Shown piece by piece: positions 3,143-49,533 of a stretch of 64,000 bases of DNA. A program made the position numbers and the translations under genes. Every line of letters begins with the position of its first letter. Position 1 is the stretch's first letter. The notes below the pieces were generated by a model that did no database searches, was not told where the DNA came from, and was given only the letters and a program-made list of their open reading frames with translations. This DNA comes from Nitratireductor arenosus (GTDB taxonomy: Bacteria > Pseudomonadota > Alphaproteobacteria > Rhizobiales > Rhizobiaceae), in NCBI RefSeq assembly GCF_009742725.1, contig NZ_WPHG01000001.1:372001-436000 (forward strand), written 5' to 3'.

Positions 3143-3143
3143 C

Positions 3144-31486: not shown

Positions 31487-32284
31487 TTACAAGCCGGTGA
31501 ATTTCGGCGGACGCTTTTCGCGAAACGCCGCCACTGCCTCGCGATGATCCTGCGACATATTGGAGAGCGATTCGTAGGCGATGCTCGGATCCATCAGGCC
31601 GTGGGCGACCTGCTTCAACGCGAGGTTCGAAACCACCTTGGTCCAGCGGATTGCCTTGCGGGCGCCCGACACCAAACGCTGCGCCAGTGCCTCGACATCC
31701 GCGTCGAGACGGTCCGACGCGACGGCGCGATTGATCAGGCCCATGCGGGCCGCCTCCGGTGCGGGAATCAAGTCTCCGGTAAGCAGATATTCCTTGGCGC
31801 GCAGAAAGCCGATGAGCTGCGGCCACAGCACGGCCCCGCCGTCGCCGGCCACAAGCCCCACCGACACATGCGGATCGCCGATCTTGGCCCGCTCGTCGGC
31901 GATCACGACATCGCATCCAAGCGCGATCGTCGCGCCAAGACCGATCGCATGACCGTTCATCCTGCAAATCAGCGGCTTTTCGAGATCGAGCTGCGAAAAG
32001 ATGATGCGCTTGGCCTCGTAGGCGGTGGTCTCGAACAGCGACGGGTCGTCGATCGCGTCCTGCATCCAGCCGATATCGCCGCCCGCGCAGAACGCCCTGC
32101 CGGCACCGGTCAACACGACGACGTCGGAATCCGGATCGTCATTGAGGTCGACGAAAACGCGCGACAACTCGGAATGAAGTTTCGCGTTCACCGCGTTGAG
32201 CGCATCGGGCAGATTGAGCGTCGCGGTGAGTATCCTGCCCTTGCGCTGGAAGGCGATCGTTTCATACCGGTCTGTCCAGTCCAT
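31487..32284 (-). CDS. enoyl-CoA hydratase/isomerase family protein
   Basis: 265 aa crotonase fold. The oxyanion-hole blocks are AGRAFCAGGDIGWM and NGHAIGLGATIALGCDVVIAD; a Glu in the usual first catalytic position is not obvious, so it may be an isomerase or hydrolase rather than a classical hydratase. Start chosen at the ATG after AACAGGGGG. It is the last gene of the operon hydrolase, E1-alpha, E1-beta, lipoyl domain, crotonase, and would act on an acyl-CoA formed by that pathway. Confidence 0.88.
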   Translation of the reverse strand: MDWTDRYETIAFQRKGRILTATLNLPDALNAVNAKLHSELSRVFVDLNDDPDSDVVVLTGAGRAFCAGGDIGWMQDAIDDPSLFETTAYEAKRIIFSQLDLEKPLICRMNGHAIGLGATIALGCDVVIADERAKIGDPHVSVGLVAGDGGAVLWPQLIGFLRAKEYLLTGDLIPAPEAARMGLINRAVASDRLDADVEALAQRLVSGARKAIRWTKVVSNLALKQVAHGLMDPSIAYESLSNMSQDHREAVAAFREKRPPKFTGL

Positions 32285-32327
32285 ACCGTCCCCCTGTTGT
32301 GCTCCACGCCGCCGTCGGACGGTCGCG

Positions 32328-32567
32328 TCAGTTTTGTTCGATGCGACACACCGGCGCGCCGACCTCCAACTCGCTGCCGGCCGCAGCGATGATCGACAAC
32401 AACACCCCATCGCAGGGCGCCTCCACTTCTGTGACCACCTTCTCGGTTTCTACCGAATAGAGCATGTCGCCGAGGCGAAAAGAATCGCCCACGGTTTTAT
32501 GCCACTCCGTCAGGGTCGCCTCTTCCATGTTCATCGACAGCTTGGGCAGCTTCAGCACGGCCTTCAT
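32328..32567 (-). CDS. free-standing lipoyl domain protein
   Basis: 79 aa, a single biotin/lipoyl-attachment domain and nothing else. LPKLSMNMEEATLTEW and VETEKVVTEV match the E2 lipoyl domain of 2-oxoacid dehydrogenases, with Lys43 as the probable lipoylated residue. The peripheral-subunit-binding and acyltransferase domains of a normal E2 are missing. The ATG overlaps the E1-beta stop, so it is the natural partner of the E1 encoded just upstream and may carry the reductively acylated lipoyl group to an unknown acceptor. Confidence 0.9.
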   Translation of the reverse strand: MKAVLKLPKLSMNMEEATLTEWHKTVGDSFRLGDMLYSVETEKVVTEVEAPCDGVLLSIIAAAGSELEVGAPVCRIEQN

Positions 32568-33544
32568 GTCACGCTTTCCTTACTGATGCGGCGCACTGCC
32601 TCAATGATATCCGTCGGGCCGGGAATCATGGCTTGCTCGAGCGGCGGCGCATAAGCGATCGCCAGATCGCGCGTGGTCACGGGAACGATCGGCGCCTTCA
32701 GGCTGTCGAACACCTTTTCCGCCACCAAAGCCGCGATCGGCCCGGCCATGCTGCCCGCCCGCCGCGCCTCGTCGACCACGACCAGCCGGCCGGTCTTGCG
32801 GACCGAGTCCAGGATCAGGTTTTCGTCGAGCGGAAAACAGGTGCGCGGATCGACGATCTCGACGTCGATCCCCTCTTCCGAAAGCGCCTCGGCCGCCTTG
32901 TTGGCCGCCCGCAGCATGGCGCCGATCGCCACGATGGTCACGGAGCCGCCCTCGCGCACGATCCGCGCCTTGCCGAGCGGGACCGTATGGTCGCCGTCGG
33001 GAACCTCACCCATCTCGCCGCCGCGGCTGGTCGGCTGCAGGAAGAACACCGGATCGTCGGTGCGGATAGCGGTTTTCAGCAGTCCCTTGGCGTCGCTCGC
33101 CGTCGCTGGCGTGGCCACATAAATGCCGCCGAGCCCGGCAACGGTGGTGTGCGGATAGTCCGAATGCTGGCCGGCATTCGAGCGCCCGCCGCCGCCTGAC
33201 GCGATAAAGGTCACCGGCAGGCGTATCTGGCCGTTGGTCATCAGCCGCAGCCGGGCGGCCTGGTTGGCGATCGCGTCGAACGCGGTATAGACGAAATTGG
33301 CGTACATCAAATGACATACGACACGGTATCCCGCCGCCGCCGCCCCGACGGCCATGCCGCCGAGCAAGGCCTCGGATATCGGCGTGTCGCGCACCCGCGC
33401 GGGTCCGAATCGGTCGAGCAACCCGCGCGTGTCGCCGAAAATCGAGGCACCGACATCCTCGCCGATCAGGATCACCCGCTCGTCGCGCTCCATCTCTTCG
33501 GCGAGCGCGTCGTTGATGGCGTGGATCATGCGCTTGCGCGTCAT
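32564..33544 (-). CDS. 2-oxoacid dehydrogenase E1 component, beta subunit
   Basis: 326 aa, transketolase-like pyrimidine-binding domain plus C-terminal domain. Typical blocks: ILIGEDVGASIFGDTRGLL, RVRDTPISEALLGGMAVGAA, ANQAARLRLMTNGQ, GQHSDYPHTTVAGL and VDEARRAGSMAGPIAAL. It pairs with the alpha subunit (4-base overlap) to form a TPP-dependent alpha2beta2 enzyme. Pyruvate, branched 2-oxoacids or acetoin are the usual substrates of this family; nothing here fixes which. Confidence 0.93.
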   Translation of the reverse strand: MTRKRMIHAINDALAEEMERDERVILIGEDVGASIFGDTRGLLDRFGPARVRDTPISEALLGGMAVGAAAAGYRVVCHLMYANFVYTAFDAIANQAARLRLMTNGQIRLPVTFIASGGGGRSNAGQHSDYPHTTVAGLGGIYVATPATASDAKGLLKTAIRTDDPVFFLQPTSRGGEMGEVPDGDHTVPLGKARIVREGGSVTIVAIGAMLRAANKAAEALSEEGIDVEIVDPRTCFPLDENLILDSVRKTGRLVVVDEARRAGSMAGPIAALVAEKVFDSLKAPIVPVTTRDLAIAYAPPLEQAMIPGPTDIIEAVRRISKESVT

Positions 33545-34521
33545 GCCGCCCCCAACAAATGCGCATCGAGACTGTCGACATCGGGATAGGGATCGTTGCC
33601 GGCGCTGTCCGCCGCCGCCTCGATGATCTTTTTTACCTCTTGCTCCAACAACTCGAACCCCTCGGGATCGAGCTCGCCGCGCGCCTCCAGCAGCGCCGCG
33701 AACCGGCCGATCGGATCATCCCGTCGCCAGTGCTCGATCTCGTCACCGGTTCGGTATTGTGTTTTCAAGAACGCGCTTTCGCCTTCGACGTGGCCGTGAA
33801 GCCGGTAGGTGATAGCCTCGATTAGCGTCGCGCCGCCGCCTTCGCGGGCGCGTGTCACGGCATCGGCCGTAGCCGCCGCGACAGCCTCGACATCGTTGCC
33901 GTCAACCCGGCGCGCCGGCACACCGAACGGCTGGGCGCGCTCGAAGATCGCACCGGCAATGACACGCCCGGTGGGGGAAAACTCGGAAAATCCGTTATTT
34001 TCGCAGATCAGGATGAGAGGTAGTTTCCACAGGGCGGCGAGGTTGAGTGCCTCGCCGAGCACGCCCTGCGCCGCAGCGCCGTCACCGAAGAAGCAGACAC
34101 CGACCTGGCCGGAGCCGTCGAGCTGGGCCGCGAGCGCGGCCCCCGTGGCCAGCCCGATGCCGCCGCCCACGATACCGTTTGCGCCGAGAATTCCCTTCGA
34201 AACATCCGCGACATGCATCGAGCCGCCAAACCCTCCGCATATGCCGCTCCGGCGTCCGTAGACTTCGGCGAACATCGCCGCGGGATCACCGCCCTTGGCG
34301 AGAAAATGCCCATGGCCGCGATGTGTGCTCGTGATCCAGTCGCGCGCGCCGAGCTGGGAGCACACCCCCACCGCCACGGCCTCCTGGCCGATGTAAAGAT
34401 GGACCGGCCCCGGCAATGAGCCGGATTTGAAATCGCGCGCCAGCCGCTCCTCCGCCTTGCGGATGATGAGCATGCCGCGCAGGAAGTCGATCGGTCGCGT
34501 TGCCGGATCGTTGGGAATCAT
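33541..34521 (-). CDS. 2-oxoacid dehydrogenase E1 component, alpha subunit
   Basis: 326 aa. TPP-binding motif GDGAAAQGV...CENN is intact, as are YIGQEAVAVGV, HRGHGHFLAKGGD and GGSMHVADVSKGILGANGIV. The last of these is closer to acetoin-dehydrogenase and branched-chain E1 alpha subunits than to the PDH type. ATG 34521 is preferred to a TTG 18 bases upstream. It follows the alpha/beta hydrolase gene by 63 bases. Confidence 0.93.
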   Translation of the reverse strand: MIPNDPATRPIDFLRGMLIIRKAEERLARDFKSGSLPGPVHLYIGQEAVAVGVCSQLGARDWITSTHRGHGHFLAKGGDPAAMFAEVYGRRSGICGGFGGSMHVADVSKGILGANGIVGGGIGLATGAALAAQLDGSGQVGVCFFGDGAAAQGVLGEALNLAALWKLPLILICENNGFSEFSPTGRVIAGAIFERAQPFGVPARRVDGNDVEAVAAATADAVTRAREGGGATLIEAITYRLHGHVEGESAFLKTQYRTGDEIEHWRRDDPIGRFAALLEARGELDPEGFELLEQEVKKIIEAAADSAGNDPYPDVDSLDAHLLGAA

Positions 34522-34584
34522 GGGGCGGTACCGTTTCAAAGGGCGCGCGGGCGGAACGTGGCGACGAACCGCCCGCGCCGCGCA

Positions 34585-35499
34585 TCAGATACGCTTCAGC
34601 GTTTTCTCGAGCCAATCGGCCTGCACCTTGGCGATCTTACCGAGATGCTCGTAATTGGTGTAAAGGCTCATATGGTCGACCCCCCGTACGACGGCCAGTT
34701 CCTTGTCGGTGCAGGGGATCGCGTTGAAGGTCTCGATTTCGAGATCGGCCGAGGTGATGTTGTCGGCCTTGGCCAGAGCCACCATCGTCGGCGTTTCGAT
34801 GATCCGCTGAGCGTAGGGTTTGACCACATAGCGCAACAAAAGCTCGACCGATTCCACCGTATTCCAGTGCTCGTGCAGCGGCGCCTCATTCGCCTTGATG
34901 CCCATGAAACCCGCATAGACGTGCGGGAACGGCCAGGCGCTCATTTCTTGAGACGGATCGGATTTCGGCGACATCGCCATCGTGTCGCCGGCCTCGCCTC
35001 GGAAGCGCTTCTTGCGGTCTTCGGCGATCAGCTTGTTGAGTGCGGCGAAGCGAGGCTCGCCATGGCAGCGGCGCATCGTCTGGAACCCGTCGACCACCGG
35101 CACCGTCGAGATCGAGAAGGCCGCGCGTGGATCGATGGCGGCCAGGATGATGGCATGCCCGCCGGCATAGGAAATCCCCCAATATCCCGAACGCGCAATA
35201 TCGATCCCGTCCAGGGTTTCGGCAAAGGAGAACGCGTTCAGGTAGTCCTCAATCTGCTCCCACGGATCAAGATGCTGGCGCCGCTCGCCCGTACTTTCCC
35301 CGAAATTACGATAGTCGAAGTGCAGCGTCGCGCAGCCGATATCGTTGAAGTATTTGGCATAGTGCGGCATCACCACTTCCTTGGTGTAGCACCACCCCCC
35401 GGCCATCACGACCAGCGGCACATCGCCGGACGCTTTCGCAGGGCGCGTCAGCACGCCCTTCAATGTTTCGCCCTGGCTTTTGAATTCCACGTTTTCCAT
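34585..35499 (-). CDS. alpha/beta hydrolase (module 1)
   Basis: 304 aa. Nucleophile elbow GISYAGG (Ser110), likely acid Asp246 and His276 (GVDHMSLY). An oxyanion-side motif GGWCY and the stretch FDYRNFGES...RQHLDPW are shared almost unchanged with the paralogue at 46518. Related proteins hydrolyse esters or C-C bonds of diketones. GGAGG lies 5 bases before the ATG. First gene of the E1/lipoyl operon, whose promoter region contains one copy of the shared 19-bp site. Reaction unknown; C-C or ester hydrolysis producing the E1 substrate is the simplest guess. Confidence 0.85.
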   Translation of the reverse strand: MENVEFKSQGETLKGVLTRPAKASGDVPLVVMAGGWCYTKEVVMPHYAKYFNDIGCATLHFDYRNFGESTGERRQHLDPWEQIEDYLNAFSFAETLDGIDIARSGYWGISYAGGHAIILAAIDPRAAFSISTVPVVDGFQTMRRCHGEPRFAALNKLIAEDRKKRFRGEAGDTMAMSPKSDPSQEMSAWPFPHVYAGFMGIKANEAPLHEHWNTVESVELLLRYVVKPYAQRIIETPTMVALAKADNITSADLEIETFNAIPCTDKELAVVRGVDHMSLYTNYEHLGKIAKVQADWLEKTLKRI

Positions 35500-35558: not shown

Positions 35559-35577
35559 TAATTTTGAACCAATATTC
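35559..35577. promoter_or_regulatory. copy 1 of shared 19-bp operator-like site
   Basis: Reads TAATTTTGAACCAATATTC; 17 of 19 positions match the reverse complement of the site at 41133-41151. It lies 60 bases upstream of the alpha/beta hydrolase start and just after the tandem TetR gene. Confidence 0.7.
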
Positions 35578-35625
35578 GGCTCGATTTCAGGTTTCCCGAT
35601 CAAACCGGCGCGGCATGGCGGGCGG

Positions 35626-36930
35626 TCAGGAAAGCGGTACGGACCGGAAGGAGGAAACGGCCTCGACCGGATCGCTTGCGGTGCGTGAAACCGCGAGGCC
35701 ACTCTCGATGAATTGCCGATAGGTGTCGAACACATGGCCGGGCAGCGTGCGATTTTCCGACGTCGGCGGAAGATAGCGGGCGGCAATATAGTGTCTCGTG
35801 GCCATGAACATATGCGCCAGGACGGGCAGCTCATGCTCCTCGAACTGACCGAGTTCGCCGTTCTGCTTCGCCCGATTCAGCGTCCGGACATAGGAATCGG
35901 TCAGGTCGAGAAAATGCTTGCGGTACGTGTCGGTGGCGTAGACGGCCGCCGCCGATTCGATGCGTATGTACCAGGGGTGATCGCGCAGATAGTCGAAGAA
36001 CCCGACAAAGCCGGCATATTCGCGATCGACAAACCGCGCCTTCCCGTCGATGAAGGAGCGGACATGGGCGAGCATCTTGACGCGGATATAGGCGAGCAGC
36101 TCGTCGAATATCTCCTGCTGGCTCTCGAAATGGCTGTAGAACGTGCCGACGGCCAGGCCCGCCTCGTCGACGATCGCCTTGATCGTCGCGCCATCGAAGC
36201 CAGTGCGCCACACAACCCGCGCCGCCGCCTCAAGCAGGACCTCGCGTGTGGTATGTGCCGGGCTATCGACTCCGCGCGCCACTGTCGGCACCGGCAACGC
36301 CGACACCGTCTCGCCGAGACCGGACCTGATGAAGCGGATATAGGTGTCCGCCACCCAGTCTGGAAAGACGGCGTCGCGGCCCACCTTGCCGTAGGGGCGC
36401 ACCTGCGCGCCGATGCTCATATGGCCGTAGGAACCGGCGAGCACCTCGGCGATCACGCGCAGCGCCGCTTCCGATTGGGGGCGCAATTCGCCGGCCGCCT
36501 CGCCGCGCATGAGCGCCTTGAGATAGCGCGCCTCGACCCTGTCCATATGATTGGCGTAACTCGTCGGCGCCGCGCTCTCGGCGTCCGTCAGTACACGCGG
36601 AAAATAGCGATGGCGCTTTACGTAGCGGGAATAGGCCATAAAGGACGAGCGCTCGGTTTCGAAGAAGCTGTCGCTTCGCACCGTGTGACGGTCCAGGAAT
36701 CGGAAAAAACGATATCCCTCGACTTCCAACAACTCGTCGAGAAAGGCCTGATGGTTGTCGAAATAGGAGTATAGCGTCCCCTGCGACAGGCCAGCCTCGT
36801 CGGTCACCCGCGACACCGACGCATTCGCGTAGCCGCTTCGCGATACGATGTGCAACCCCGCGCTTATCAGCGCTTCGCGTCGCTCGCGCCGCAGGTCAGC
36901 GCGTGATTTTTTCTTCGGTGCTGTCTTCAT
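35626..36930 (-). CDS. transcriptional regulator with two TetR domains
   Basis: 434 aa, about twice the usual TetR length. First DNA-binding domain at about residues 15-62 (VSRVTDEAGLSQGTLYSYF) and a second at about 227-275 (IKAIVDEAGLAVGTFYSHF), each followed by its own helical ligand-type region. Both recognition helices look intact, so it may bind DNA as a monomer-like unit or hold two sites. It overlaps the 3' end of the acyl-CoA ligase gene by 35 bases. The frame can be extended upstream to 37158, but that is a shadow of the ligase. Predicted controller of the three 19-bp sites nearby; no proof in sequence. Confidence 0.9.
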   Translation of the reverse strand: MKTAPKKKSRADLRRERREALISAGLHIVSRSGYANASVSRVTDEAGLSQGTLYSYFDNHQAFLDELLEVEGYRFFRFLDRHTVRSDSFFETERSSFMAYSRYVKRHRYFPRVLTDAESAAPTSYANHMDRVEARYLKALMRGEAAGELRPQSEAALRVIAEVLAGSYGHMSIGAQVRPYGKVGRDAVFPDWVADTYIRFIRSGLGETVSALPVPTVARGVDSPAHTTREVLLEAAARVVWRTGFDGATIKAIVDEAGLAVGTFYSHFESQQEIFDELLAYIRVKMLAHVRSFIDGKARFVDREYAGFVGFFDYLRDHPWYIRIESAAAVYATDTYRKHFLDLTDSYVRTLNRAKQNGELGQFEEHELPVLAHMFMATRHYIAARYLPPTSENRTLPGHVFDTYRQFIESGLAVSRTASDPVEAVSSFRSVPLS

Positions 36931-38584
36931 CACGGGCCCTGCCAATCGGCGCAAATTCTGCCGCTCGTTTACGGAGCAAATCCTTGCGCACTTTCCCCGC
37001 AGCCGTATACGGCAGATCAGGAACGACCTCCAATCTCTCAGGGAATTTTTGGCGCGCCAACCCGGATTCCTCCAGAAATGCGACCAGAGACGGTAAATCC
37101 AGCACATTGCCGTCGTGCAGAACGACAAACGCGCACGCGGTTTCGCCAAGCCTTGCATGCGGCATTGCCACCACCGCCGCGTCCTTTACTGCCGCGATCT
37201 TGTATATCTCATCTTCGATCTCCTTCGGCCCGAGATTCTCTCCGCCACGGATGATCAGGTCCTTCTTGCGCCCGGTAATCACCAGGCAACCCTCCGGCGT
37301 CAGACGCCCGAGATCACCGGTGTGGAAAAAGCCGTCCGCGTCGAAGACGTCGGCATTCTGGGACGGATCGGAATAGCCGAGGCACACTTCGGGACCTCTC
37401 GTCACGATCTCCCCTTCCTCGCCCGGCGCGACCTCGCTGCCGTCGAGGTCGACCAGCCGCATATCGTGTCCGACGACGAACCCCTCGGTCGACGCAGCCA
37501 GGTTCGCCCGCTCCCGTTCCGGCACGCCGAGCGTCACCGTGGGCGCCTCGGTACTGCCATAAAGGCGGAAGACCGAACAGTTCTCGAAGGCGGCATTGGC
37601 GCGATGCACCACCTCCGGCGGAACCGGGGCGCCCCCGCTGGCGAAATAGCGCAGGCTCGGCAGGGAACGCCCACTCCCAGCGGCGAACGCCGACAATTCC
37701 TGGAGGAAGGGCGTCGCGCCGATGGTAAAGGTCACGCCGTGCTGGTCGATCAGGTCCGCCGCCGCAGCAACGTCCCAGCTATCCATCAAAACAACCTTGC
37801 ATCCCGCCGTGACCGGAAGCTGGACGCCATAGAGATACCCGGTGACATGACCGAGCGGTGACGGCATCAGGACCACGTCCTTGCCGGAAATGCCAAGATA
37901 ATCGATGAAGTTGCTGATCTCCGCGCCGATCGTGTTGTGACTGTGCAGGACGCCCTTGGCGCGCCCGGTCGTGCCGGAGGTGTACATCAACAGCTTGATC
38001 GCGTCGGCGCGCGCGCCATCCGCGCGGATGGGCGCGACGGTTTCGCCCTCATCCGGCCTGATCATGTCCTCGAACCGCTTCTGCGGAGTGTCCGGCCCGG
38101 CGCGGACAACCAGCGTTTCGAAACGCTGGTTGGATCGGTCCGAAATCCGCCTGGCCATCGCGGAATAGTCATAGCCGCGAAACGTCTCTGGGATCACGAA
38201 AACACGGGATCCGGCATCCGCGATGATATGGCCGACTTCCGCCTCGCGGTAGATCGGCACGATCGGGTTGCATACGAAGCCGCCATAAGAACAGGCGAGG
38301 TCAATCAACGCGGCCTCGTGCCAGTTCGGAAGCTGGAAGCTCACCACATCGTCGACGCCAAGCCCCATCCCGACGAGCCCGGCACGAAGCCCGAGAGCGC
38401 GGCGACGCATCTCGTTGGCTGTCAAGATCCGGTCGCCGTCGACCGTGAGCGCCATGTCCGGCGTGCGTTCGCACAAGGAATCGAGGCGATCGGCGATCGT
38501 CATCCCCTGCCAAGACCCGTCGGCCTTCCAGTCCTCGACGGGAAGCGCATGCAGGCGCGGGGTCCATTTGCCAGTTCCAGACAT
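36896..38584 (-). CDS. acyl-CoA ligase (AMP-binding), cyclohexanecarboxylate/medium-chain type
   Basis: 562 aa ANL-family enzyme that activates a carboxylic acid to its CoA thioester. P-loop MYTSGTTGRAKGVLHS, A5 motif YGSTEAPTVT, A7/A8 HTGDLGRL and GRKKDLIIRGGENLGPKEIED, catalytic Lys in GKVRKDLL. The start has AAGGAGGAAGC before the ATG. Overall features are close to AliA-like ligases, but the acid is not identifiable. It is divergent from the acyl-CoA dehydrogenase and shares a 19-bp site with it. Confidence 0.92.
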   Translation of the reverse strand: MSGTGKWTPRLHALPVEDWKADGSWQGMTIADRLDSLCERTPDMALTVDGDRILTANEMRRRALGLRAGLVGMGLGVDDVVSFQLPNWHEAALIDLACSYGGFVCNPIVPIYREAEVGHIIADAGSRVFVIPETFRGYDYSAMARRISDRSNQRFETLVVRAGPDTPQKRFEDMIRPDEGETVAPIRADGARADAIKLLMYTSGTTGRAKGVLHSHNTIGAEISNFIDYLGISGKDVVLMPSPLGHVTGYLYGVQLPVTAGCKVVLMDSWDVAAAADLIDQHGVTFTIGATPFLQELSAFAAGSGRSLPSLRYFASGGAPVPPEVVHRANAAFENCSVFRLYGSTEAPTVTLGVPERERANLAASTEGFVVGHDMRLVDLDGSEVAPGEEGEIVTRGPEVCLGYSDPSQNADVFDADGFFHTGDLGRLTPEGCLVITGRKKDLIIRGGENLGPKEIEDEIYKIAAVKDAAVVAMPHARLGETACAFVVLHDGNVLDLPSLVAFLEESGLARQKFPERLEVVPDLPYTAAGKVRKDLLRKRAAEFAPIGRARDEDSTEEKITR

Positions 38585-38633
38585 GCTTCCTCCTTGTACC
38601 CGCAAGCGCGCTGTCAGTCATTTTCGCGGTTCC

Positions 38634-38652
38634 GAATTTTGATTCATAATTT
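38634..38652. promoter_or_regulatory. copy 2 of shared 19-bp operator-like site
   Basis: Reads GAATTTTGATTCATAATTT; 14 of 19 positions match the site at 41133-41151. It lies in the 193-base divergent gap, 50 bases upstream of the ligase start and 126 bases upstream of the dehydrogenase start. Confidence 0.55.
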
Positions 38653-38777
38653 TATTGACTGAAAGTGCGTTTGTCGACAAGCTTATCGTAGCCCGCCACC
38701 GGATTGGCACGCATCTTCCGCTTGCCGTCCGGGGTTTCTGGTTTGACGTTGCAACACCCGCTGCGAAAAAGGTCGAG

Positions 38778-39941
38778 ATGGTGAATATCAAACTCCCGTC
38801 GCATATCGATCAGTTGCGAAGCAGTCTGCGCAGATTCGTCGACGAACACATGCCGCGCGAGGAAGCCGCGCGCTGGGACAAGGAAAACACCTTTCCCCGA
38901 GACGTATTCGACAAGCTCAGCGCCCTTGGCGTCATGGGCAGTACCATTCCCGAGGAATATGGCGGCAGCGGCCGTGACATTCTCGCGACCCTGGTGACCA
39001 TCGAGGAACTGTCGAAACGAAGCCTCGCGGTATCGGTCCCCTATATCATGGCCGCATGTTATGCCGGAATGAACGTGCTTGAATGCGGATCGCCCCGCCA
39101 GAAGGCGGAGCTTCTTCCGCTGGTCGCGGCGGGCAAGATGCTTTTTGCCTATGGCTGGACCGAGGCCGATACCGGAGCCGATCTGGCCAGCGTCAAGACC
39201 AAAGGCACGATCGCCGGCGACCATATCGTGATCAACGGCGCCAAACGGTTCTGCTCGGGAGCGGAGATCTGCGACTATATCTACGCGCTCGTTCGAACCG
39301 GCGATCAGGCGGCGCGCTACGAGAACCTGTCGGTCGTGCTGATTTCGCCGAAGCTGCCCGGCGTCGAGATACGACCGATCGATTCGATGGGCATGAAAGG
39401 CGCTCGCACGACCGACGTGACTTTCATCGACGTCAAGGTTCCGGTCGAGATGATCGTCGGCGAGGCAAGCGGCATCAACCGTGGCTGGAGCATGCTCACT
39501 TCCGCCGGCCTCGACGTCGAAAAGCTTGAGGTTGCCGCAATCGCGCTCGGCATCGCCGAAGCGGCTTGCGACGACGCCTGGGACTACAGCCAGCAGCGGA
39601 CCCAGTTCGGCAGGACCATCAGCACGTTTCAGTCTCTGCGCCACCAGCTGGCCGACATGCGAACGCAGCTTCACGCGGCACGGCTGGTCACCTATCACGC
39701 CGCCCATCGCGCCGATGCCGACCGGCCCGACCGGGTCGAGACCTCGATGACCAAGCTCTTCGTCACCGAGACGGCCAGAAAGGTCGTGCTCGACGCGCAG
39801 ACCATTCTGGGCGCCTACGGCTACGTCAGGGATTTCGATCTCGAACGTTATGTGCGCGACGTCCTGCTGATGCCGATCATCGGAGGATCGTCCGCCGTGC
39901 AGCGCAACAACATCGCCAACTGGCTCGGCCTTGCCCGATGA
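38778..39941 (+). CDS. acyl-CoA dehydrogenase (isovaleryl-type active site)
   Basis: 387 aa flavoenzyme. FAD/substrate blocks GWTEADTGADLASV and GAKRFCSGAE are present. The usual catalytic EGT near the C-terminus is replaced by GGSSAVQR, but LDVEKLEVAA (Glu248) places a Glu at the site used by isovaleryl- and long-chain enzymes, so the protein should be active on branched or bulky acyl-CoAs. The ATG at 38778 has AAGG upstream; the frame can extend to 38655 through the operator region. It is followed by OsmC, which overlaps its stop. Confidence 0.9.
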   Translation: MVNIKLPSHIDQLRSSLRRFVDEHMPREEAARWDKENTFPRDVFDKLSALGVMGSTIPEEYGGSGRDILATLVTIEELSKRSLAVSVPYIMAACYAGMNVLECGSPRQKAELLPLVAAGKMLFAYGWTEADTGADLASVKTKGTIAGDHIVINGAKRFCSGAEICDYIYALVRTGDQAARYENLSVVLISPKLPGVEIRPIDSMGMKGARTTDVTFIDVKVPVEMIVGEASGINRGWSMLTSAGLDVEKLEVAAIALGIAEAACDDAWDYSQQRTQFGRTISTFQSLRHQLADMRTQLHAARLVTYHAAHRADADRPDRVETSMTKLFVTETARKVVLDAQTILGAYGYVRDFDLERYVRDVLLMPIIGGSSAVQRNNIANWLGLAR

Positions 39942-40459
39942 CCGTCACACCGGAGAAACACACAGCCATGTCCGCTTCCTCCAACACATTCGACGTCGTC
40001 ATCCGCTGCAACGGCAAGGCGGTGGGAAAAATGCGCAACGAGGCCAGGGTCGACATCGTCGAGCCGTTTGTCGAAAGTCACGAGATAGCCTCCGACGAAG
40101 GCCCGTTTCACGGCGGCGACGGGTCGGCGCCGCCGCCATTGACCTATTTCGTCGGCGGGTTCGTCACCTGTCTGATGACGCAGATCCGCGCCTTCGCGAA
40201 ACGCTTCAGGATCGCGCTCGACACGCTCGAGGTGGACGCGGAGTTCCAGTGGAAGGGCCTGACCGAGCCCGGCAAGCCGTACCGCGCGCAGCCGGTGGGC
40301 ATCCGCCTCGATATCCAGATCGCGAGCGACGCGGGTCAAAACAGGATTATCGAACTGATCAACGCCGCCAAGCAAGGTTGCTTTGTCGAGGCGGTCATCT
40401 CCGAGCGCATGAAGGTCGTTCACCGCCTCAAGACGCCCGACGGATGGATTGACTGCTGA
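39938..40459 (+). CDS. OsmC/Ohr family protein
   Basis: 173 aa. Both reactive Cys of the family are present: Cys78 (GGFVTCLMTQ) and Cys148 (KQGCFVEAV). OsmC/Ohr proteins reduce organic hydroperoxides, and known Ohr enzymes take electrons from lipoylated proteins. The first ATG overlaps the dehydrogenase stop (ATGA); a second in-frame ATG at 39968 is a possible alternative. It lies between an acyl-CoA dehydrogenase and an AhpD-like gene. Confidence 0.88.
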   Translation: MTVTPEKHTAMSASSNTFDVVIRCNGKAVGKMRNEARVDIVEPFVESHEIASDEGPFHGGDGSAPPPLTYFVGGFVTCLMTQIRAFAKRFRIALDTLEVDAEFQWKGLTEPGKPYRAQPVGIRLDIQIASDAGQNRIIELINAAKQGCFVEAVISERMKVVHRLKTPDGWIDC

Positions 40460-40488
40460 TCGACCACAGGCCTGTCAGGGAGGACGCC

Positions 40489-41076
40489 ATGCCCAGAATC
40501 GACCCCATCGCCGACGATCAATCCGATCCGGAAGCCCGCGACCTGGTCGCGGACGCGGAACGCAAGGGAGCCCCCGATCCGCGGATTATGAGCATCTTCG
40601 TCCGCAGCAAACGGAGCGGCCGGGCATGGGCACGCTACTGGAACGCCCTTTTGTACGAGGGTGTCCTGCCGCACAGACTGAAAGAGCTGTGCCGCATCCG
40701 GATGTCGGTCGCGCATCGATGCGGCTATTGCTCGACAGTGCGGTCCAACCTGGCCCGCGAGGAAGGGCTGACCGAGCAGCTCTTGTGGGAGACGTTCGAC
40801 TACGAAACCGCGACCGGCATCACCGAGCGCGAGAAGACCGCGCTTTGGTACGCGGACCTGTTCAAACAAAGCGACGGCGCCATCGACGACGACGCGGTGT
40901 TTGCCCGTTTGCGCCGTCACTTCGACGACGAGGAGATCATCGAGCTCGGCCTGTTCTGCGCCGAGGTCGACGGGGTCGGCAAGTTCGCCCGCTCGCTTCA
41001 GGTGCTGAGCTGGGACGAGGCCTGCGAGATCAATCCCAACCTGCAGCGCGAAACCGAGCGGGCTTCGCGACCTTAG
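40489..41076 (+). CDS. carboxymuconolactone decarboxylase/AhpD family protein
   Basis: 195 aa helical protein with the redox motif HRCGYCSTVRSN (Cys78, Cys81), as in AhpD-like members. AhpD itself reduces a peroxidase by way of lipoylated E2, so CxxC here suggests a thiol-redox rather than decarboxylase role. AGGAC-like ribosome site before the ATG. Ends the ligase-divergent operon; 190 bases then separate it from the TRAP operon. Confidence 0.88.
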   Translation: MPRIDPIADDQSDPEARDLVADAERKGAPDPRIMSIFVRSKRSGRAWARYWNALLYEGVLPHRLKELCRIRMSVAHRCGYCSTVRSNLAREEGLTEQLLWETFDYETATGITEREKTALWYADLFKQSDGAIDDDAVFARLRRHFDDEEIIELGLFCAEVDGVGKFARSLQVLSWDEACEINPNLQRETERASRP

Positions 41077-41132
41077 CGGCAAGAATCCGCGAGCCGATGA
41101 CTAATTGATGTGAGTGGCTGAGGAATTTTCTA

Positions 41133-41151
41133 GAATATTGGTTCAATATTC
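41133..41151. promoter_or_regulatory. copy 3 of shared 19-bp operator-like site (best palindrome)
   Basis: GAATATTGGTTCAATATTC: perfect 8-bp arms with a 3-base centre, 116 bases upstream of the third TRAP receptor gene. Typical of a TetR-type operator. The two other copies lie at 35559 and 38634, around the tandem TetR gene. Confidence 0.75.
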
Positions 41152-41266: not shown

Positions 41267-42343
41267 ATGAAGACACCGACACGCAGTCTCGTCAAACTGG
41301 CTATGGTGGCCACCAGCCTCGCCGGCGCCTCGGCTGCCTATGCTCAAGAAGCAGTCAACGTCACCGTGGTCTCGGGCTACCCGCCGACCGCGTCCTGGGT
41401 CCGGGTGTTCGAGGAATTTTTCATCCCCACGGTCGACAGCAAGCTGGCTGAGAAGAACGAATACAAGATCAACTGGAACAAGGGATTTTCCGGCACCATC
41501 GTCAAGCCGCGCGGCGAGCTGGAAGCCGTGGGCACCGGTATCGGTGACATGGGCATCGTCGTGCCGCCGTTTCATGTCGACAAGCTGCCCCTGTTCAACG
41601 TCTCCTTCGTGACACCGTTTTCGACCGGCGATCTTCATCTCGTGACGAAGACGATCTCCCAGCTCGCCCAGGACATCCCCGAGATGGCGCAGGAGTTCGA
41701 CGCACTCAACCAGGTCTATCTCGGCAGTTCGGGAACGGTCGACAACTACCAGGCCGTCTGCAAGTCCGCCAAGGAGACGGTCGCCGATTTCGAGGGCGTC
41801 AAGGTTGTCGGCGCCGGCATCAACCTGCGTTATTTCCAGGGCGTCGGCGCCATCGGCATCAGCAGCAATCTGGGCGACTACTATAATCAGTTGCAGACCG
41901 GCGTCGCCGAATGCGCCTCGGTTTGGGCCGAAGCAACGGCAGGCTTCAAGCTTTATGAAGTGGCGCCCTACCTCATCAAGGCCGACCAGGGCGCCACGAC
42001 CTCGTTCGCCCTCACCGCCAACAAGCAGTTCTGGGACGGCCTGCCCGAATCGGTGCAGGATGTGCTGCGCACGACCTCGCAGGAATATGGGCAAAAGCTC
42101 GCCGATTACGTTGTGAACGCCAGCAGCGCGGCACTCGAGACATTCAAACAGAACGGCGGCACGATCATCGAGTACTCACAACAACAGCGTGAAGAGTGGG
42201 CGAAATCCCTGCCCAACATCGCCAAGGAATGGGCCGACGAAACCGAGGCCCAGGGCAAGCCGGCACACAAGGTTCTGAAGGTCTACATGGACGCGCTGCG
42301 CGCGAACGGCGAGCCCGTTTCGCGAAACTGGGACAGCGAATAG
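41267..42343 (+). CDS. TRAP transporter substrate-binding protein, DctP family (third system)
   Basis: 358 aa receptor with signal peptide ending AAYAQE. GGGAGG precedes the ATG. The fold is DctP-like (DALNQVYLGSSG, NKQFWDGLPESVQDVL), but where the two other receptors have K(L/I)RVPE the sequence reads GVKVVGAGINLRYF. The conserved carboxylate-binding Arg is therefore shifted or missing, which hints at a different type of ligand, perhaps a neutral or bulky molecule. Followed by DctQ and DctM with tight spacing. Confidence 0.88.
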   Translation: MKTPTRSLVKLAMVATSLAGASAAYAQEAVNVTVVSGYPPTASWVRVFEEFFIPTVDSKLAEKNEYKINWNKGFSGTIVKPRGELEAVGTGIGDMGIVVPPFHVDKLPLFNVSFVTPFSTGDLHLVTKTISQLAQDIPEMAQEFDALNQVYLGSSGTVDNYQAVCKSAKETVADFEGVKVVGAGINLRYFQGVGAIGISSNLGDYYNQLQTGVAECASVWAEATAGFKLYEVAPYLIKADQGATTSFALTANKQFWDGLPESVQDVLRTTSQEYGQKLADYVVNASSAALETFKQNGGTIIEYSQQQREEWAKSLPNIAKEWADETEAQGKPAHKVLKVYMDALRANGEPVSRNWDSE

Positions 42344-42349
42344 GCTGGC

Positions 42350-42922
42350 ATGACCGGCGCGCCCCCGCACACACCCGACGAAACGCGTTCGCAACGCGTT
42401 TCGTCCCCGTCCGGGCCCCTCGGCTACGCTGCCTCGGCGCTCAACGCCATCGGCTCCATCGGCATTTTTTTGCTGATGTGCCTGATTTGCCTCGATGTGG
42501 CGGGACGCTATTTCTTCGGCGCGCCGATCATGGGCGTCACCGAGATCGCCGAGATCTCGATCGTGGCGATCGTCTTTTTCCAGCTCGCCGACACATTGGC
42601 CCGGGACCGCATGCCCCGGGCCGACATCGTTGTGAATATCCTTCGCAACAAACGCCCGAGGATAGCCGGTTTCATCGACGCTTTCGCCGCGCTGTGCGGT
42701 GTCGCGCTGATGCTGCTGATCGACTACGGCACCATTCCCGGCATCATCAACGACTATCGCAACGGTTATTACATCGGCACGGTCGGGCTTTTCACCTTCC
42801 CGTCCTGGCCGATCAAGGCGGCCATCGCATTGGGCGCGAGCTTGGCCGCTGTTCAACTCATGGCGATCGCCGTACGAGCCGTGAGGGTAATGTGGGGGAC
42901 CGCGTCCCGGGGGACACCATGA
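42350..42922 (+). CDS. TRAP transporter small membrane subunit, DctQ family (third system)
   Basis: 190 aa with a polar lead of about 25 residues and four hydrophobic helices. Family block GRYFFGAPIMGVTEIAEI near residue 50. It starts 6 bases after the receptor stop and overlaps dctM by ATGA. Part of the operon controlled from 41077-41266. Confidence 0.9.
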   Translation: MTGAPPHTPDETRSQRVSSPSGPLGYAASALNAIGSIGIFLLMCLICLDVAGRYFFGAPIMGVTEIAEISIVAIVFFQLADTLARDRMPRADIVVNILRNKRPRIAGFIDAFAALCGVALMLLIDYGTIPGIINDYRNGYYIGTVGLFTFPSWPIKAAIALGASLAAVQLMAIAVRAVRVMWGTASRGTP

Positions 42923-44235
42923 CGCCGATCGAAATCGGAATCGCCTCGGTCAGCGTGATGCTGGTTCTGATCTATCTCGGCATTCATGTCCCGTTTGTCC
43001 TGGCAATGACATCCTTTGTCGGCGTGTGGCTGATCCGCGACAATTTTCAGGTCGCTGTCTACATGCTGTCGCAAGCCGCGGCACAGAGCATCTCTGACTA
43101 TATTTTTGCTGTCATTCCGCTGTTTGTGCTGATGGGCATGCTCGTCAGCGCGGCGGATCTGGGGCGCGACAGCTACTACGTCGCCAATCGTCTGCTGCGC
43201 AAACTGCCCGGCGGGCTTGGGGTCGCGACGGTCGCGGCCAACACCGTTTTTGCCTCCATCACGGGCGTCACGATCGCCTCGGCGGCGGTGTTCTCGCGCA
43301 TCGCCGTGCCGGAGATGCTCCGCTTCGGCTACGACCGGCGCTTTGCCGTCGGCACGGTCGCGGGAAGCTCGGTCCTCGGCATGCTGATCCCGCCGAGCAT
43401 CCTGCTCATCGTCTATGCGATCGTCGCCGAGCAATCGGTGGGGGACATGTTTTTGGCCGGCATCGGGCCCGGCCTGCTGCTTGCCGTGTTTTTCTCGCTG
43501 GGGATATTCGTCACTGCCTTGCTCTTTCCCAAGGCGGTCGGCGGTGGCGGCACGGCACCCGACCCCGCTGACGAGGACGACCTCACCCTCCGCGAATTCC
43601 TGGAAAAGATGGGACCCACTCTGGTGCTGGTCATCGCCGTTCTCGGCGGGATCTATGGCGGCATCTTCACGCCGACCGAGGCCGGAGCCGTCGGCGCGGC
43701 GCTCGCGCTGGCCGCCGCACTGCTGCGGCGCAAGCTGAATTGGCGCATCCTCTGGGATATCCTGATCGAGACCGGCTATATCAGCTCCTCGATCCTGTTC
43801 ATGGTGATCTCGGCGACGATGTATTCGCGTATGCTGGGCATTTCCGGACTTCCCACCCAGATCAGCACGCTGGTTTCCGGGCTCGACGCAAGTTACTTCG
43901 TCGTGCTTTTGATCTTTGTCGGTATCGCGCTCGTGCTGGGCACGATAATCGATTCAGTGTCGATCCTGCTGATCACGGTACCGCTCTTCATCCCGCTGCT
44001 GCAGCCTTACGACATCAGCCTGGTGTGGTTCGGCATCGTCGCCATCATGGCGATCGAGATCGGGTTGCTGACGCCTCCCTTCGGCATGTCATGTTATGTG
44101 GTGCGAAGTACGCTCACCAATTACGACGTGACGCTGGAGGATGTCTTCCTCGGCGCGTTTCCCTTCGCGCTGGTGATGCTGCTGGTGACCGCCCTGCTGA
44201 TCGTCTTCCCGCAGATCGTGCTGGTCTTCGTCTGA
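42919..44235 (+). CDS. TRAP transporter large membrane subunit, DctM family (third system)
   Basis: 438 aa, about 12 helices. Blocks LLIPPSILLIVYAIVAEQSVG-like region, PTEAGAVGAALA, LGTIIDSVSILLITVPLF and LLTPPFGMSCYVV are as in DctM. Start at the ATG overlapping dctQ. Completes the third TRAP importer. The 193 bases that follow, up to the convergent acyl-CoA dehydrogenase, show no gene and no clear terminator. Confidence 0.94.
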   Translation: MTPIEIGIASVSVMLVLIYLGIHVPFVLAMTSFVGVWLIRDNFQVAVYMLSQAAAQSISDYIFAVIPLFVLMGMLVSAADLGRDSYYVANRLLRKLPGGLGVATVAANTVFASITGVTIASAAVFSRIAVPEMLRFGYDRRFAVGTVAGSSVLGMLIPPSILLIVYAIVAEQSVGDMFLAGIGPGLLLAVFFSLGIFVTALLFPKAVGGGGTAPDPADEDDLTLREFLEKMGPTLVLVIAVLGGIYGGIFTPTEAGAVGAALALAAALLRRKLNWRILWDILIETGYISSSILFMVISATMYSRMLGISGLPTQISTLVSGLDASYFVVLLIFVGIALVLGTIIDSVSILLITVPLFIPLLQPYDISLVWFGIVAIMAIEIGLLTPPFGMSCYVVRSTLTNYDVTLEDVFLGAFPFALVMLLVTALLIVFPQIVLVFV

Positions 44236-46517: not shown

Positions 46518-47435
46518 TCACGGCTGCAAGGTCTCGACGAACCATTCGGTCGCCATCTCGGCGGCCTTCTCGACCTTCGATTTGTCGGAGTAGAGCGTCA
46601 TATGCGACGTGTGGGGAAGCACTTCGAGCTTCTTCCTGTTTGTTGGAATCCGATTGAAGGCATCGATCTCCAGGTCCCACAGCGTCAGGTCGTCGCCTTC
46701 CGCCACGATCATCAGCGTCGGCGTATTGTAGATGCGTTTCACAAACGGTCCGACATCATAGTTCAACAGCAGGTCGACCGATTCAACCGTGCTGCTGTTC
46801 TGGTAGAGCGGCGCCTCGTTTTCCTTGATCGCCATGAAGGTCCGCACGGTCTCCGGGAAAGGCCATGACGAAATCTCCTCGGCGGAGTTTTCGGTGGCGT
46901 GTGGGAGATAGAGCCGCTCGCCGGGCTTTTCATAGCGCAGCGTGCGGTCCTTCAAGATCAGATCCCACAACGCCCGATACTCCATCGTTCCGTGAACACG
47001 CCGCATGTTCTCGTAACCGTCGACGACGGGGATCTGGCTGACGATGGCGCGCACCCGCGGATCGGTCGCCGCGAGAATGAGCGCATGCCCGCCCGAATAG
47101 GAAATACCCCATACGCCGAGCCGGTCCGGGTCGACGAGTTCGTGGCGCTCGAGGAAGCTCAGCGCGTTCTGGTAGTCGCGAATCTGCGCCCACGGATCCA
47201 GATGCTGGCGGTCGTCGCCGTCGCTGACACCGAGATTGCGGTAGTCGAACACCAGCGCGTTGATGCCCGCACTGGCGAAAGCCTGCGCGTAGACCGGCAT
47301 CACGATCTCGCGCACGTAGCACCAGCCCCCGGCCAGCACGACGGCGGGCGAGCGCCGGTTTTCATCGCCGACATACAACCAGCCGCGGACGGTTTCGCCC
47401 TCGGACTGAAACTCGACATCGAGCCGCTTGACCAT
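46518..47435 (-). CDS. alpha/beta hydrolase (module 2)
   Basis: 305 aa, paralogue of the enzyme at 34585: both have AGGWCY, a long FDYRNxGxS...RQHLDPW block and VVDGxxxMRR. Nucleophile elbow GISYSGG (Ser112), His278 (HTSHMTLY), acidic candidates at Asp248/249. GGAGAGG precedes the ATG; the upstream extension of the frame to 47684 overlaps the E1 gene and is not real. It is next to a TPP-dependent E1, as module 1 is. Ester or C-C hydrolysis is inferred. Confidence 0.86.
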   Translation of the reverse strand: MVKRLDVEFQSEGETVRGWLYVGDENRRSPAVVLAGGWCYVREIVMPVYAQAFASAGINALVFDYRNLGVSDGDDRQHLDPWAQIRDYQNALSFLERHELVDPDRLGVWGISYSGGHALILAATDPRVRAIVSQIPVVDGYENMRRVHGTMEYRALWDLILKDRTLRYEKPGERLYLPHATENSAEEISSWPFPETVRTFMAIKENEAPLYQNSSTVESVDLLLNYDVGPFVKRIYNTPTLMIVAEGDDLTLWDLEIDAFNRIPTNRKKLEVLPHTSHMTLYSDKSKVEKAAEMATEWFVETLQP

Positions 47436-47499
47436 TCTTCCTCTCCTACGTTGATTTTCACTCGATTGCGGATGATCGCCCACCGCAGCGACGGACGCG

Positions 47500-49533
47500 T
47501 TATGTTCGGTAACAGACCGCGCGGGCGGCTTCGGCGATCCGCGCGGCATTGGGAATGAGTTCGCGCTCCAGTGCCGCATTGTACGGCATCGGCACCTCGT
47601 CCATGCCGATCCGGGCCACCGGCGCATCCAGATAGTCGAACGCCTGTTCCATGATCTGGGCCGAGATTTCCGCGCCGCTGCCATATGATTTCCATCCCTC
47701 GTGCACGACGACGCATCGGTTGGTCTTGCGCACCGAGGCGATGATCGTGTCCATGTCGAGCGGGCGCAGCGTGCGCGGATCGATCACTTCGGCCCCGATG
47801 CCTTCCCGTTCCAGCGTACGCGCCGCCGACAGGGCGGCGGAGACCATCGCCATTGTCGCCACCACGGTTACGTCGGCGCCGACGCGCTTGATATCGGCCT
47901 TGCCGATCGGCAGCGTGTAATAGGCTTCCGGCACCTCGCCATTGCTGCGCTGGTAAAGCAGCTTGTGTTCGATGAAGACGACCGGATTGTTGTCGCGGAT
48001 CGCGGCCGCGAGCAGGCCCTTGGCATCGTATGGATCCGATGGCGCGATCACCGTCAGTCCGGGAATATGGGCGAACCAGCTTTCCAACGATTGCGAGTGC
48101 TGCGCCGCCAGCCGGATGCCGCCACCCTGGGGACCACGCACCACCAGCGGGACGCCGATCTCGCCGCCGAGCATGAAGCGCAGTTTCGCCGCCTGATTGA
48201 CGATCGCATCCATCATATGGGTGATGAAATCGAAGAACTGGACCTCGACCACCGGGCGCAAGCCGGTGAGCGCGGCGCCGACGGCGGCATTGATGATCGC
48301 GTTCTCCGAAATCGGCGTGTCGCGTACCCGTTTCGGGCCGAACGTTTCGAGCAGCCCCGCCGAGCACTGGAACAGGCCGCCGATCCGGCCGACATCCTCG
48401 CCGAGCAGGATGACGCGATCGTCCAGCTCCATCGATTGATGCATCGCTTCGCGGATCGCCTCGACATAGCTGAGCGGCCGGGCAGCCGGGTCCGCCGGTT
48501 CGACGACCGCCAAGGCGGGCATCTGCACTGCTGGCCACAGGATCTCCCGGGTGGGTTCTGGCGCACCAAGTGCCTTCGACACCGCCTGGTCGAGTTCTTC
48601 GTCGGCCGCGGCGCGAATCCGGGCGAGCGCTGCCTCGCCCACCTGCCTCTGCGCGAGGAGCCCGGCGGCGTGGACAACCGGATCGCGGTCGCGCCGCCAG
48701 GCCTCTTCCTCCGCGCCGGAGCGATATGAGGGAAGGTTGGAGCGCATGGAATGATCGCCCCAGCGATAGGTCATGCCCTCGATCAGGCTCGGGCCCTGAC
48801 CATCGCGCGCGCGCAAGACGGCGGCCCCCACTGAATCCATGACAGCTGTCACGTCGTTGCCGTCGATCGTCTCGCCGGGCATGCCGTAGGCGGCCGCGCG
48901 CGCCGATATCTGCGCAACCGACGACGCGTCGCCGACACCCAGCGACAGCCCATACTGATTGTTCTCGCACAAAAAGATCACCGGCAGCTTCCACAAAGCG
49001 GCCAGATTGAGCGCTTCGTGGAAAATACCCTCATTGGCCGCGCCGTCGCCGAAAAAGGCGACGCAGACCTGCCTGGTTCCGCGTATCCGCGCCGACAGAC
49101 CGGCCCCGGTGCCGATGCCGATCCCCGCCCCGACGATGCCGTTGGCGCCAAGGATGCCCCGGTCGATGGCGGCGATATGCATCGACCCGCCGAGCCCGTG
49201 ACCGTACCCGGTCGCACGCCCCAAAAGTTCGGCCATCATCCGTTCGGTGTCCGCCCCCTTGGCGATGCAGTGTCCATGGCCCCGATGATGCGACACGACG
49301 TAATCATCGGGCTCAAGCACCGCGCAGGCGCCGACGGCGATGGCCTCCTGCCCCACGCAGGAATGCGCCGTACCCTTGATGTCGCCGGATTCGAAAAGCG
49401 CCTCGGCGCGCTCCTCGAATCCGCGTATGCGCACCATGTCGGCGTAGCAGCGCCGCAGCACCGCCGTATCCGGGGCCGGAAGCGGCGGAAGCTGCGACGC
49501 GCCATCGCCATGTCGACGCGTGTCCAGGGTCAT
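47500..49533 (-). CDS. fused 2-oxoacid dehydrogenase E1 (alpha and beta in one chain)
   Basis: 677 aa. Residues 1-340 are E1-alpha (CVGQEAIAVGACAVLE, HRGHGHCIAKGAD, TPP motif GDGAANEGI...CENN); residues 350-677 are E1-beta (ILLGEDVGRIGGLFQ, RVRDTPISENAI, QGGGIRLAAQHSQS). Both active-site halves look complete. Start at the ATG overlapping the SDR stop; the open frame continues upstream to 50322 but that part is a shadow of the SDR gene, so this is not an SDR-E1 fusion. No lipoyl, E2 or E3 gene is nearby in this operon. Confidence 0.92.
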   Translation of the reverse strand: MTLDTRRHGDGASQLPPLPAPDTAVLRRCYADMVRIRGFEERAEALFESGDIKGTAHSCVGQEAIAVGACAVLEPDDYVVSHHRGHGHCIAKGADTERMMAELLGRATGYGHGLGGSMHIAAIDRGILGANGIVGAGIGIGTGAGLSARIRGTRQVCVAFFGDGAANEGIFHEALNLAALWKLPVIFLCENNQYGLSLGVGDASSVAQISARAAAYGMPGETIDGNDVTAVMDSVGAAVLRARDGQGPSLIEGMTYRWGDHSMRSNLPSYRSGAEEEAWRRDRDPVVHAAGLLAQRQVGEAALARIRAAADEELDQAVSKALGAPEPTREILWPAVQMPALAVVEPADPAARPLSYVEAIREAMHQSMELDDRVILLGEDVGRIGGLFQCSAGLLETFGPKRVRDTPISENAIINAAVGAALTGLRPVVEVQFFDFITHMMDAIVNQAAKLRFMLGGEIGVPLVVRGPQGGGIRLAAQHSQSLESWFAHIPGLTVIAPSDPYDAKGLLAAAIRDNNPVVFIEHKLLYQRSNGEVPEAYYTLPIGKADIKRVGADVTVVATMAMVSAALSAARTLEREGIGAEVIDPRTLRPLDMDTIIASVRKTNRCVVVHEGWKSYGSGAEISAQIMEQAFDYLDAPVARIGMDEVPMPYNAALERELIPNAARIAEAARAVCYRT

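Follow-up and report, generated by a model that had tools for sequence, protein, structure and literature searches.

The stretch of DNA analysed here, which we call the window, comprises 64,000 nucleotides of the genome of Nitratireductor arenosus (RefSeq assembly GCF_009742725.1, contig NZ_WPHG01000001.1, positions 372,001 to 436,000 of the forward strand), and all coordinates below count from its first letter unless another locus is named. It carries the gene for an unusual regulator with two TetR domains in one chain (P0001, hereafter the tandem regulator), which lies in a cluster of genes for uptake, coenzyme A (CoA) activation and an E1 module, and three promoter gaps of this cluster contain one type of 19-bp site, called here P1, P2 and P3 (Table 1). 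A first-pass annotation had described this gene order, and the family matches obtained for the hydrolase, E1 and lipoyl genes, for the ligase and dehydrogenase genes and for the TRAP genes agree with that description.

Table 1. Genes, domains, promoter-like sequences and predicted operators of the cluster (window coordinates)
Feature	Coordinates	Strand	Basis or remark
Enoyl-CoA hydratase open reading frame	31487..32410	-	ECH_1 from residue 57; true start likely further in
Stand-alone lipoyl-domain protein, 79 amino acids	32328..32567	-	matches N-terminal part of acetoin dehydrogenase E2 model NF011457
E1 beta subunit	32564..33544	-	Transket_pyr + Transketolase_C
E1 alpha subunit	33541..34539	-	E1_dh
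Alpha/beta hydrolase	34585..35499	-	59 bp behind operator P1
Sigma-70-like promoter TTGACA-17-CATCAT, directly downstream of P1	35528..35556	-	consensus match only
Operator P1, GAATATTGGTTCAAAATTA, before hydrolase/E1/lipoyl/enoyl-CoA hydratase genes	35559..35577	-	2 mismatches, 17/19
Tandem-TetR regulator P0001, 434 amino acids	35626..36930	-	two Pfam TetR_N stretches
Second TetR_N domain of the regulator, residues 232-278	36097..36237	-	best Pfam stretch
First helix-turn-helix region of the regulator, about residues 18-64	36739..36879	-	blastp alignment to second domain; boundary approximate
Acyl-CoA ligase	36896..38584	-	AMP-binding; 3' end overlaps regulator gene by 35 bp
Operator P2, GAATTTTGATTCATAATTT, between divergent ligase-regulator and acyl-CoA dehydrogenase genes	38634..38652	+	5 mismatches, 14/19
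Sigma-70-like promoter TCGACA-17-TAAAAT facing ligase-regulator genes	38649..38677	-	consensus match only
Acyl-CoA dehydrogenase	38778..39941	+	family-library match
OsmC-like protein	39968..40459	+	family-library match
Carboxymuconolactone decarboxylase / AhpD-like protein	40489..41076	+	family-library match
Operator P3, GAATATTGGTTCAATATTC, before TRAP genes	41133..41151	+	exact best form
TRAP transporter (DctP 41267-42343, small permease 42350-42922, DctM 42919-44235)	41267..44235	+	DctP + DctM matches

The tandem regulator matches Pfam TetR_N in two stretches (82.9 bits, E 1.4e-23, the best one at residues 232-278), and blastp aligns its N-terminal and C-terminal halves with 30% identity over 189 amino acids, which bears out the earlier proposal of two TetR domains in a single chain; no Pfam TetR_C family was matched on the 434 residues at E 0.001. 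All seven orthologues, the window protein included, have the N-terminus M.T..KKK[S/T]R in common, and in five of them the helix-turn-helix regions are 74-87% (first) and 75-87% (second) identical to those of the window protein. The orthologue of a further genome, G147, likewise has two TetR_N domains, with identities of 69% in the first helix-turn-helix and 49% in the second. In a tree of the halves (five of each kind, together with 21 rows of single-domain TetR proteins) the N halves form one group and the C halves another, and the tree does not settle how the two groups join. An AlphaFold model of the full chain, made from six aligned sequences, those of the window protein and of five orthologues, reached a mean pLDDT of 54 and a pTM of 0.45, which is too poor for the question of whether the two domains form a pseudo-dimer, and its top Foldseek match, Mce3R (E 3.3e-5, TM about 0.3), is weak as the model itself is poor. 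Another tandem TetR protein was seen in genome G035 (stretch L120, 717-2045, minus strand), as an open frame of 443 amino acids with two TetR_N and two TetR_C_24 stretches. It apparently belongs to a different subfamily from the window regulator, and proteins of this tandem build may have more than one origin.

The three sites are present exactly as the first-pass annotation had claimed, down to its match counts of 17/19 (P1) and 14/19 (P2) with the best form, which is P3, with perfect inverted-repeat arms of 8 bp around a 3-bp centre. The consensus is GAATATTG[G/A]TTCAN[A/T]ATT[C/T], a 19-bp quasi-palindrome, from whose symmetry the common P1 form departs only at the centre and at one arm position, and the P2 forms at further positions. 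At three mismatches or fewer, 100 shuffles of the 64-kb window gave a mean of 0.01 chance matches (none reached three), and a search of the whole 4.81-Mb genome at this threshold returned P3 (plus its reverse strand) and P1 only, with 0 matches for the reversed-pattern control. P2, at five mismatches, lies outside this genome search and is secured by the comparison with other genomes.

Among 100 relatives and the own genome, the other full-length orthologues of the tandem regulator were those of G052 (83%) and G022 (69%), the remaining listed matches being partial and covering one TetR region or part of it. Each of these two genomes has an exact P3 and a P1 with one mismatch, G022 also has a P2 with three mismatches, and no further match was found genome-wide in either. 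The family was sampled with 394 genomes: a DNA-only search at two mismatches or fewer found sites in 17 of them (two matches in seven, a single match in ten), with six matches for the reversed-pattern control, never two per genome, and a profile search placed the full-length regulator (E <=1e-40) in the same seven genomes as the paired sites. In the ten single-match genomes the tandem regulator was looked for and not found, and none of 11 cluster proteins matches there within about 1.5 kb of the site. In a sample of 297 genomes of the order, paired sites occur in the own genome only and single matches in three others, in which no cluster or regulator gene lies within about 1.5 kb of the match (control: two matches, never two in the same genome). 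A class-wide sample of 385 genomes contained no further full-length relative at E <=1e-40 and one single-half match (G756). A scan of 84,980 genomes, which is seeded with a pair of short peptides and could overlook distant relatives, gave five matches (Aquibium sp. A9E412, Flavimaribacter sediminis and three metagenome-assembled Rhizobiaceae); no further relative was found in a scan of viral contigs.

In the seven genomes with the regulator, a strong site is found at all three promoters in six and at two promoters in G147: P1 has a counterpart in 7/7, P2 a strong one in 6/7 (window genome included), and P3 an exact copy in 6/7, with two mismatches in G147. Across the seven whole genomes a degenerate pattern built from these sites has 20 matches, all of them at P1, P2 or P3, with 0 in the control; as the sites were already known when the pattern was drawn up, it is a test of their exclusivity and not of their discovery, and it shows none of the equally good matches at unrelated promoters that would speak against a dedicated regulon. 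The sites are also conserved beside the orthologues, with 17/19 invariant columns at each promoter's site versus 1, 2 and 3 of 60 bp upstream, and a mean pairwise identity of 0.93-0.96 in the sites versus 0.27-0.30 upstream, that is, at chance level (five lineages were compared, four for P2). In six genomes the compared genes, from the hydratase to DctM but not including the ligase, keep their order and strand. The units are arranged differently in G147, where the regulator is preceded on one strand by the TRAP genes and an open reading frame with a ligase-matching end, which lie behind the P3 site of that genome. The G147 cluster also contains a second, single-domain TetR (L085, 18347-18976, minus strand, one TetR_N), flanked by weak related motifs at 18292 and 19954, and the weak third site in G147 may be the operator of this second TetR.

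The architecture of the regulator, the sites, their conservation and exclusivity, and their co-occurrence with the regulator were all computed, and a further line of evidence comes from relatives that have a single TetR domain. Plasmid records contain 17 of them, whose matched pieces are 28-37% identical to the tandem regulator; they come from Azospirillum, Rhizobium, Shinella, Neorhizobium, Pontibrevibacter, Sulfitobacter and other genera, where they stand mostly near E1, E2, ligase or acyl-CoA genes. For 16 of the 17, both halves of the tandem regulator align to a single stretch of about 600 bp. In 14 neighbourhoods of these 17, tetR lies directly behind a ligase gene in six cases and one gene further in five (Azospirillum), according to the annotation or, for L104 and L105, to tblastn. 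We scanned 28 loci of single-domain proteins (14 from plasmids and 14 genome stretches) with a matrix built from the eight distinct tandem sites only. At 14 of these loci, among them 7/14 of the plasmid ones, the best score was reached by no more than five of 500 column-permuted matrices, when about 0.3 loci would be expected, and at 11 it exceeded all 30 Markov resamples (about 0.9 expected). The related sites are in the same register as the tandem 19-bp sites. The best scores, 28.1 bits, are those of Pontibrevibacter (L098), with GAATGTTGATTCAATATTC starting 61 bp before tetR, and of Rhizobium lusitanum (L100), with GAATATTGACTCATAATTC upstream of ligase-tetR; in Sulfitobacter (L099) GAATTTTGATTCGACATTC lies between dctP and tetR, and in Azospirillum GAATGATGATTCATGTTTC stands before E1 alpha. 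With related sites near half of the single-domain loci, it is most likely this kind of TetR to which the 19-bp site belongs. The site of the fused protein is as long as that of its single-domain relatives, which is most simply explained if one chain takes the place of a homodimer.

The tandem sites are not fully symmetric. Position 9 is G in 14/14 P1 and P3 sites and A in 6/6 P2 sites, positions 10-13 (TTCA) are constant across all 20, and the 20 strong sites share one orientation with respect to the downstream gene (hydrolase, dehydrogenase or TRAP), an agreement that concerns three promoters only and would arise by coincidence with a probability of 1/4. The two strong sites of G147 differ from the usual P1 form solely at position 6, in the gene-distal half; compared with the usual P3 form, the G147 P3 also differs at position 15, in the gene-proximal half. 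Near single-domain proteins the core of the site is frequently symmetric, TGA-N-TCA, and its centre is free. We considered the asymmetric TGG-T-TCA centre as a mark of the tandem protein and rejected it, since similar centres occur near single-domain relatives (at L109 beyond the control, at L113 not). The L109 stretch (G072), which holds a single-domain TetR, TRAP genes, a hydrolase and a ligase, has three near-identical asymmetric sites, GAATAATGG[T/G]TCGT[A/C]ATTC, at 2811, 3125 and 16220. At L119 (G049) there are two identical copies of GAATATTGATTCATGTTTC, at 18407 and 18858, in opposite orientation, 451 bp apart and about 9 kb from the TetR.

The promoters give some indication of the direction of control. 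On the ligase side of P2 the operator overlaps the second hexamer, TAAAAT, of a promoter-like pair, and this arrangement is typical of a repressor. Since the ligase gene runs 35 bp into the regulator gene, P2 also likely controls the regulator gene itself (a predicted autoregulation). At P1 the TTGACA begins 2 nt beyond the end of the operator in 7/7 genomes. Towards the dehydrogenase gene, P2 is followed after 2-3 nt by a TTGAC in 6/6 strong sites. At P3 a standard promoter pair was looked for and not found. The spacings between the operators (3070-3181 and 2499-2540 bp in six genomes) are uninformative on helical phase at such a distance.

We think that a single tandem chain probably serves as a ready-made dimer at each operator and keeps four transcription units, its own included, repressed, probably until a CoA thioester releases it. 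The regulator would bind the predicted 19-bp operators at three places in its own cluster, from P1 controlling the hydrolase-E1-lipoyl-hydratase genes, from P2 both the ligase-regulator and the dehydrogenase genes, and from P3 the TRAP transporter. One chain would replace the ordinary TetR homodimer, with its two non-identical helix-turn-helix domains reading one half-site each, and repression would come about by covering promoter hexamers. When the acid has been imported, the CoA thioester made from it by the ligase would fill the ligand pocket and the regulator would let go of the DNA; a CoA thioester is the most likely inducer because a ligase belongs to the regulon and because FadRSa and KstR are the nearest solved relatives of the regulator. 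Binding by the regulator, repression, one chain per site and the acyl-CoA ligand are what we infer here. The suggestion of the first-pass annotation, that one repressor may govern uptake, CoA activation and the E1 module together, is supported by the conservation of the sites, by their co-occurrence with the regulator and by the single-domain relatives, while its repressive sense is deduced.

Several observations weigh against this interpretation and should be kept in mind. The seven genomes represent five genera, three of the genomes coming from one genus, and so they are not seven independent cases, and in G147 the third site is weak and ambiguous and stands beside the second, single-domain TetR. 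Of the single-domain loci, the remaining 14/28 have no site beyond the permutation control, four of the 14 positive ones are near-identical Azospirillum loci and thus not independent, and at L110 and L119 the best match lies more than 7 kb from the TetR. Cores of the TGG-N-TC type occur near the single-domain TetR of L109, and asymmetry is therefore no proof that two different domains read the site. Finally, a TTGAC that lies just downstream of the site, as it does at P1 and, towards the dehydrogenase gene, at P2, would suit an activator equally well. This last point, together with the common orientation of the 20 strong sites relative to their target genes, speaks for a regulator that activates, or does both, instead of plainly repressing, an option that we regard as unlikely. 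The position of P2 over the second hexamer on the ligase side is the usual place of a repressor, and repression is more likely by analogy, because most TetR proteins studied so far are repressors (PMC3511530), and because FadRSa represses and is released by acyl-CoA, according to its description in PMC6449355.

If the regulator represses, it might still do so with two chains sharing one site, for example through two first domains, the other pair of helix-turn-helix regions being left free or held on a second DNA. The perfect 8-bp arms of the best site would suit such a symmetric dimer, and the authors of the Mce3R study weighed a comparable M1M1/M2M2 assembly before the structure was solved (PMC11667970). 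We nevertheless find it rather improbable, for the solved precedent, Mce3R, uses one chain per site (same source), both helix-turn-helix regions are kept in the orthologues, and the site has a fixed centre, with TT at positions 10-11 in 20/20 sites. That the three sites serve another regulator, merely linked to the cluster, is very hard to believe: co-occurrence by itself cannot separate linked genes, it is true, and the G147 cluster does contain a second TetR, but a related 19-bp site is found near single-domain relatives in different gene settings, and site pairs coincide with the full-length regulator in 7/7 genomes. Nor do we give any real credit to chance or to a slow drift of shared promoter DNA, even if P2 in the window matches at 14/19 positions only, as the DNA upstream of the sites is at chance identity in the same comparison, the shuffles give an expectation of 0.01 matches, and such sites are found nowhere else in the seven genomes. 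Our preferred interpretation, one tandem chain per operator acting as a repressor, could be extended further: through the fusion, a repressor that worked as a homodimer might have become one chain with two specialised reading heads, the second domain might read the gene-distal half-site and the first the gene-proximal one, always with the same polarity, and pairs of chains might bridge two of the three operators and loop the 5.6-kb cluster. The drift of the second domain in G147, the change at position 6, the 20/20 polarity and the analogy with Mce3R hint at this extension, which is speculative and in our opinion doubtful as a whole; if the bridging were true, uptake, activation and breakdown would switch together.

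The obvious comparison is with Mce3R of Mycobacterium tuberculosis (PDB 9b7y), which also has two TetR domains in one chain. As reported in PMC11667970, one Mce3R chain occupies one 25-bp non-palindromic site, pairs of chains hold two DNAs, and looping is suggested by the authors; the same text calls double-TetR repressors infrequent in bacterial genomes, cites a prediction of 204 of them in actinomycetes, and presents the 2024 work as the first structure of such a repressor. The Mce3R regulon is described there as autoregulated and linked to lipid metabolism, and in this the predicted window regulon resembles it, whereas the operators of the window are 19-bp near-palindromes and those of Mce3R are not palindromic. 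Among the matches listed in the open-licence literature, we found no natural double TetR studied besides Mce3R. There is no specific kinship in sequence between the two proteins: 9b7y_A scores 33.4 bits over 60 residues of one helix-turn-helix, below KstR and FadRSa, and a single-sequence search agrees. Among solved structures, KstR matches the first half of the tandem regulator best (about 50 bits), and KstR2 matches the second half (about 35 bits). These two TetR repressors of mycobacterial cholesterol catabolism are single-domain homodimers with other operators and targets. The closest solved sequence to the second half is FadRSa of Sulfolobus acidocaldarius (PDB 6el2/6en8; 69.7 bits), which, as PMC6449355 describes it, represses a local acyl-CoA cluster from four semi-palindromic sites in the genome and is released by acyl-CoA. 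It differs from the window regulator in being archaeal, in having a single TetR domain and acting as a homodimer, and in its 16-bp motif.

A few points about the neighbouring genes may be added. Acetoin-type E2 proteins combine a lipoyl domain and an alpha/beta hydrolase in one chain. The 79-amino-acid lipoyl protein and the separate alpha/beta hydrolase nearby may be a split version of such an E2, an idea of which the match to NF011457 backs the lipoyl part only. The small TRAP permease (190 amino acids) had no NCBIfam match at 1e-20 and was placed by its position. Further along the window, 46518-50507 (minus strand) resembles, by eye, another hydrolase/E1 module, in which a single frame holds both E1 alpha and E1 beta, accompanied by a short-chain dehydrogenase/reductase (SDR); this module is without the 19-bp site.

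The sequence evidence supports the view that this cluster is a second case of a double TetR, not specifically related to Mce3R, at the head of a compact, conserved and self-contained regulon. It makes the effects of a TetR fusion (one chain per site, specialisation for half-sites, looping) directly testable in environmental bacteria, and it would offer a ready regulon, and possibly a biosensor part, for an uncharacterised pathway of acid degradation.

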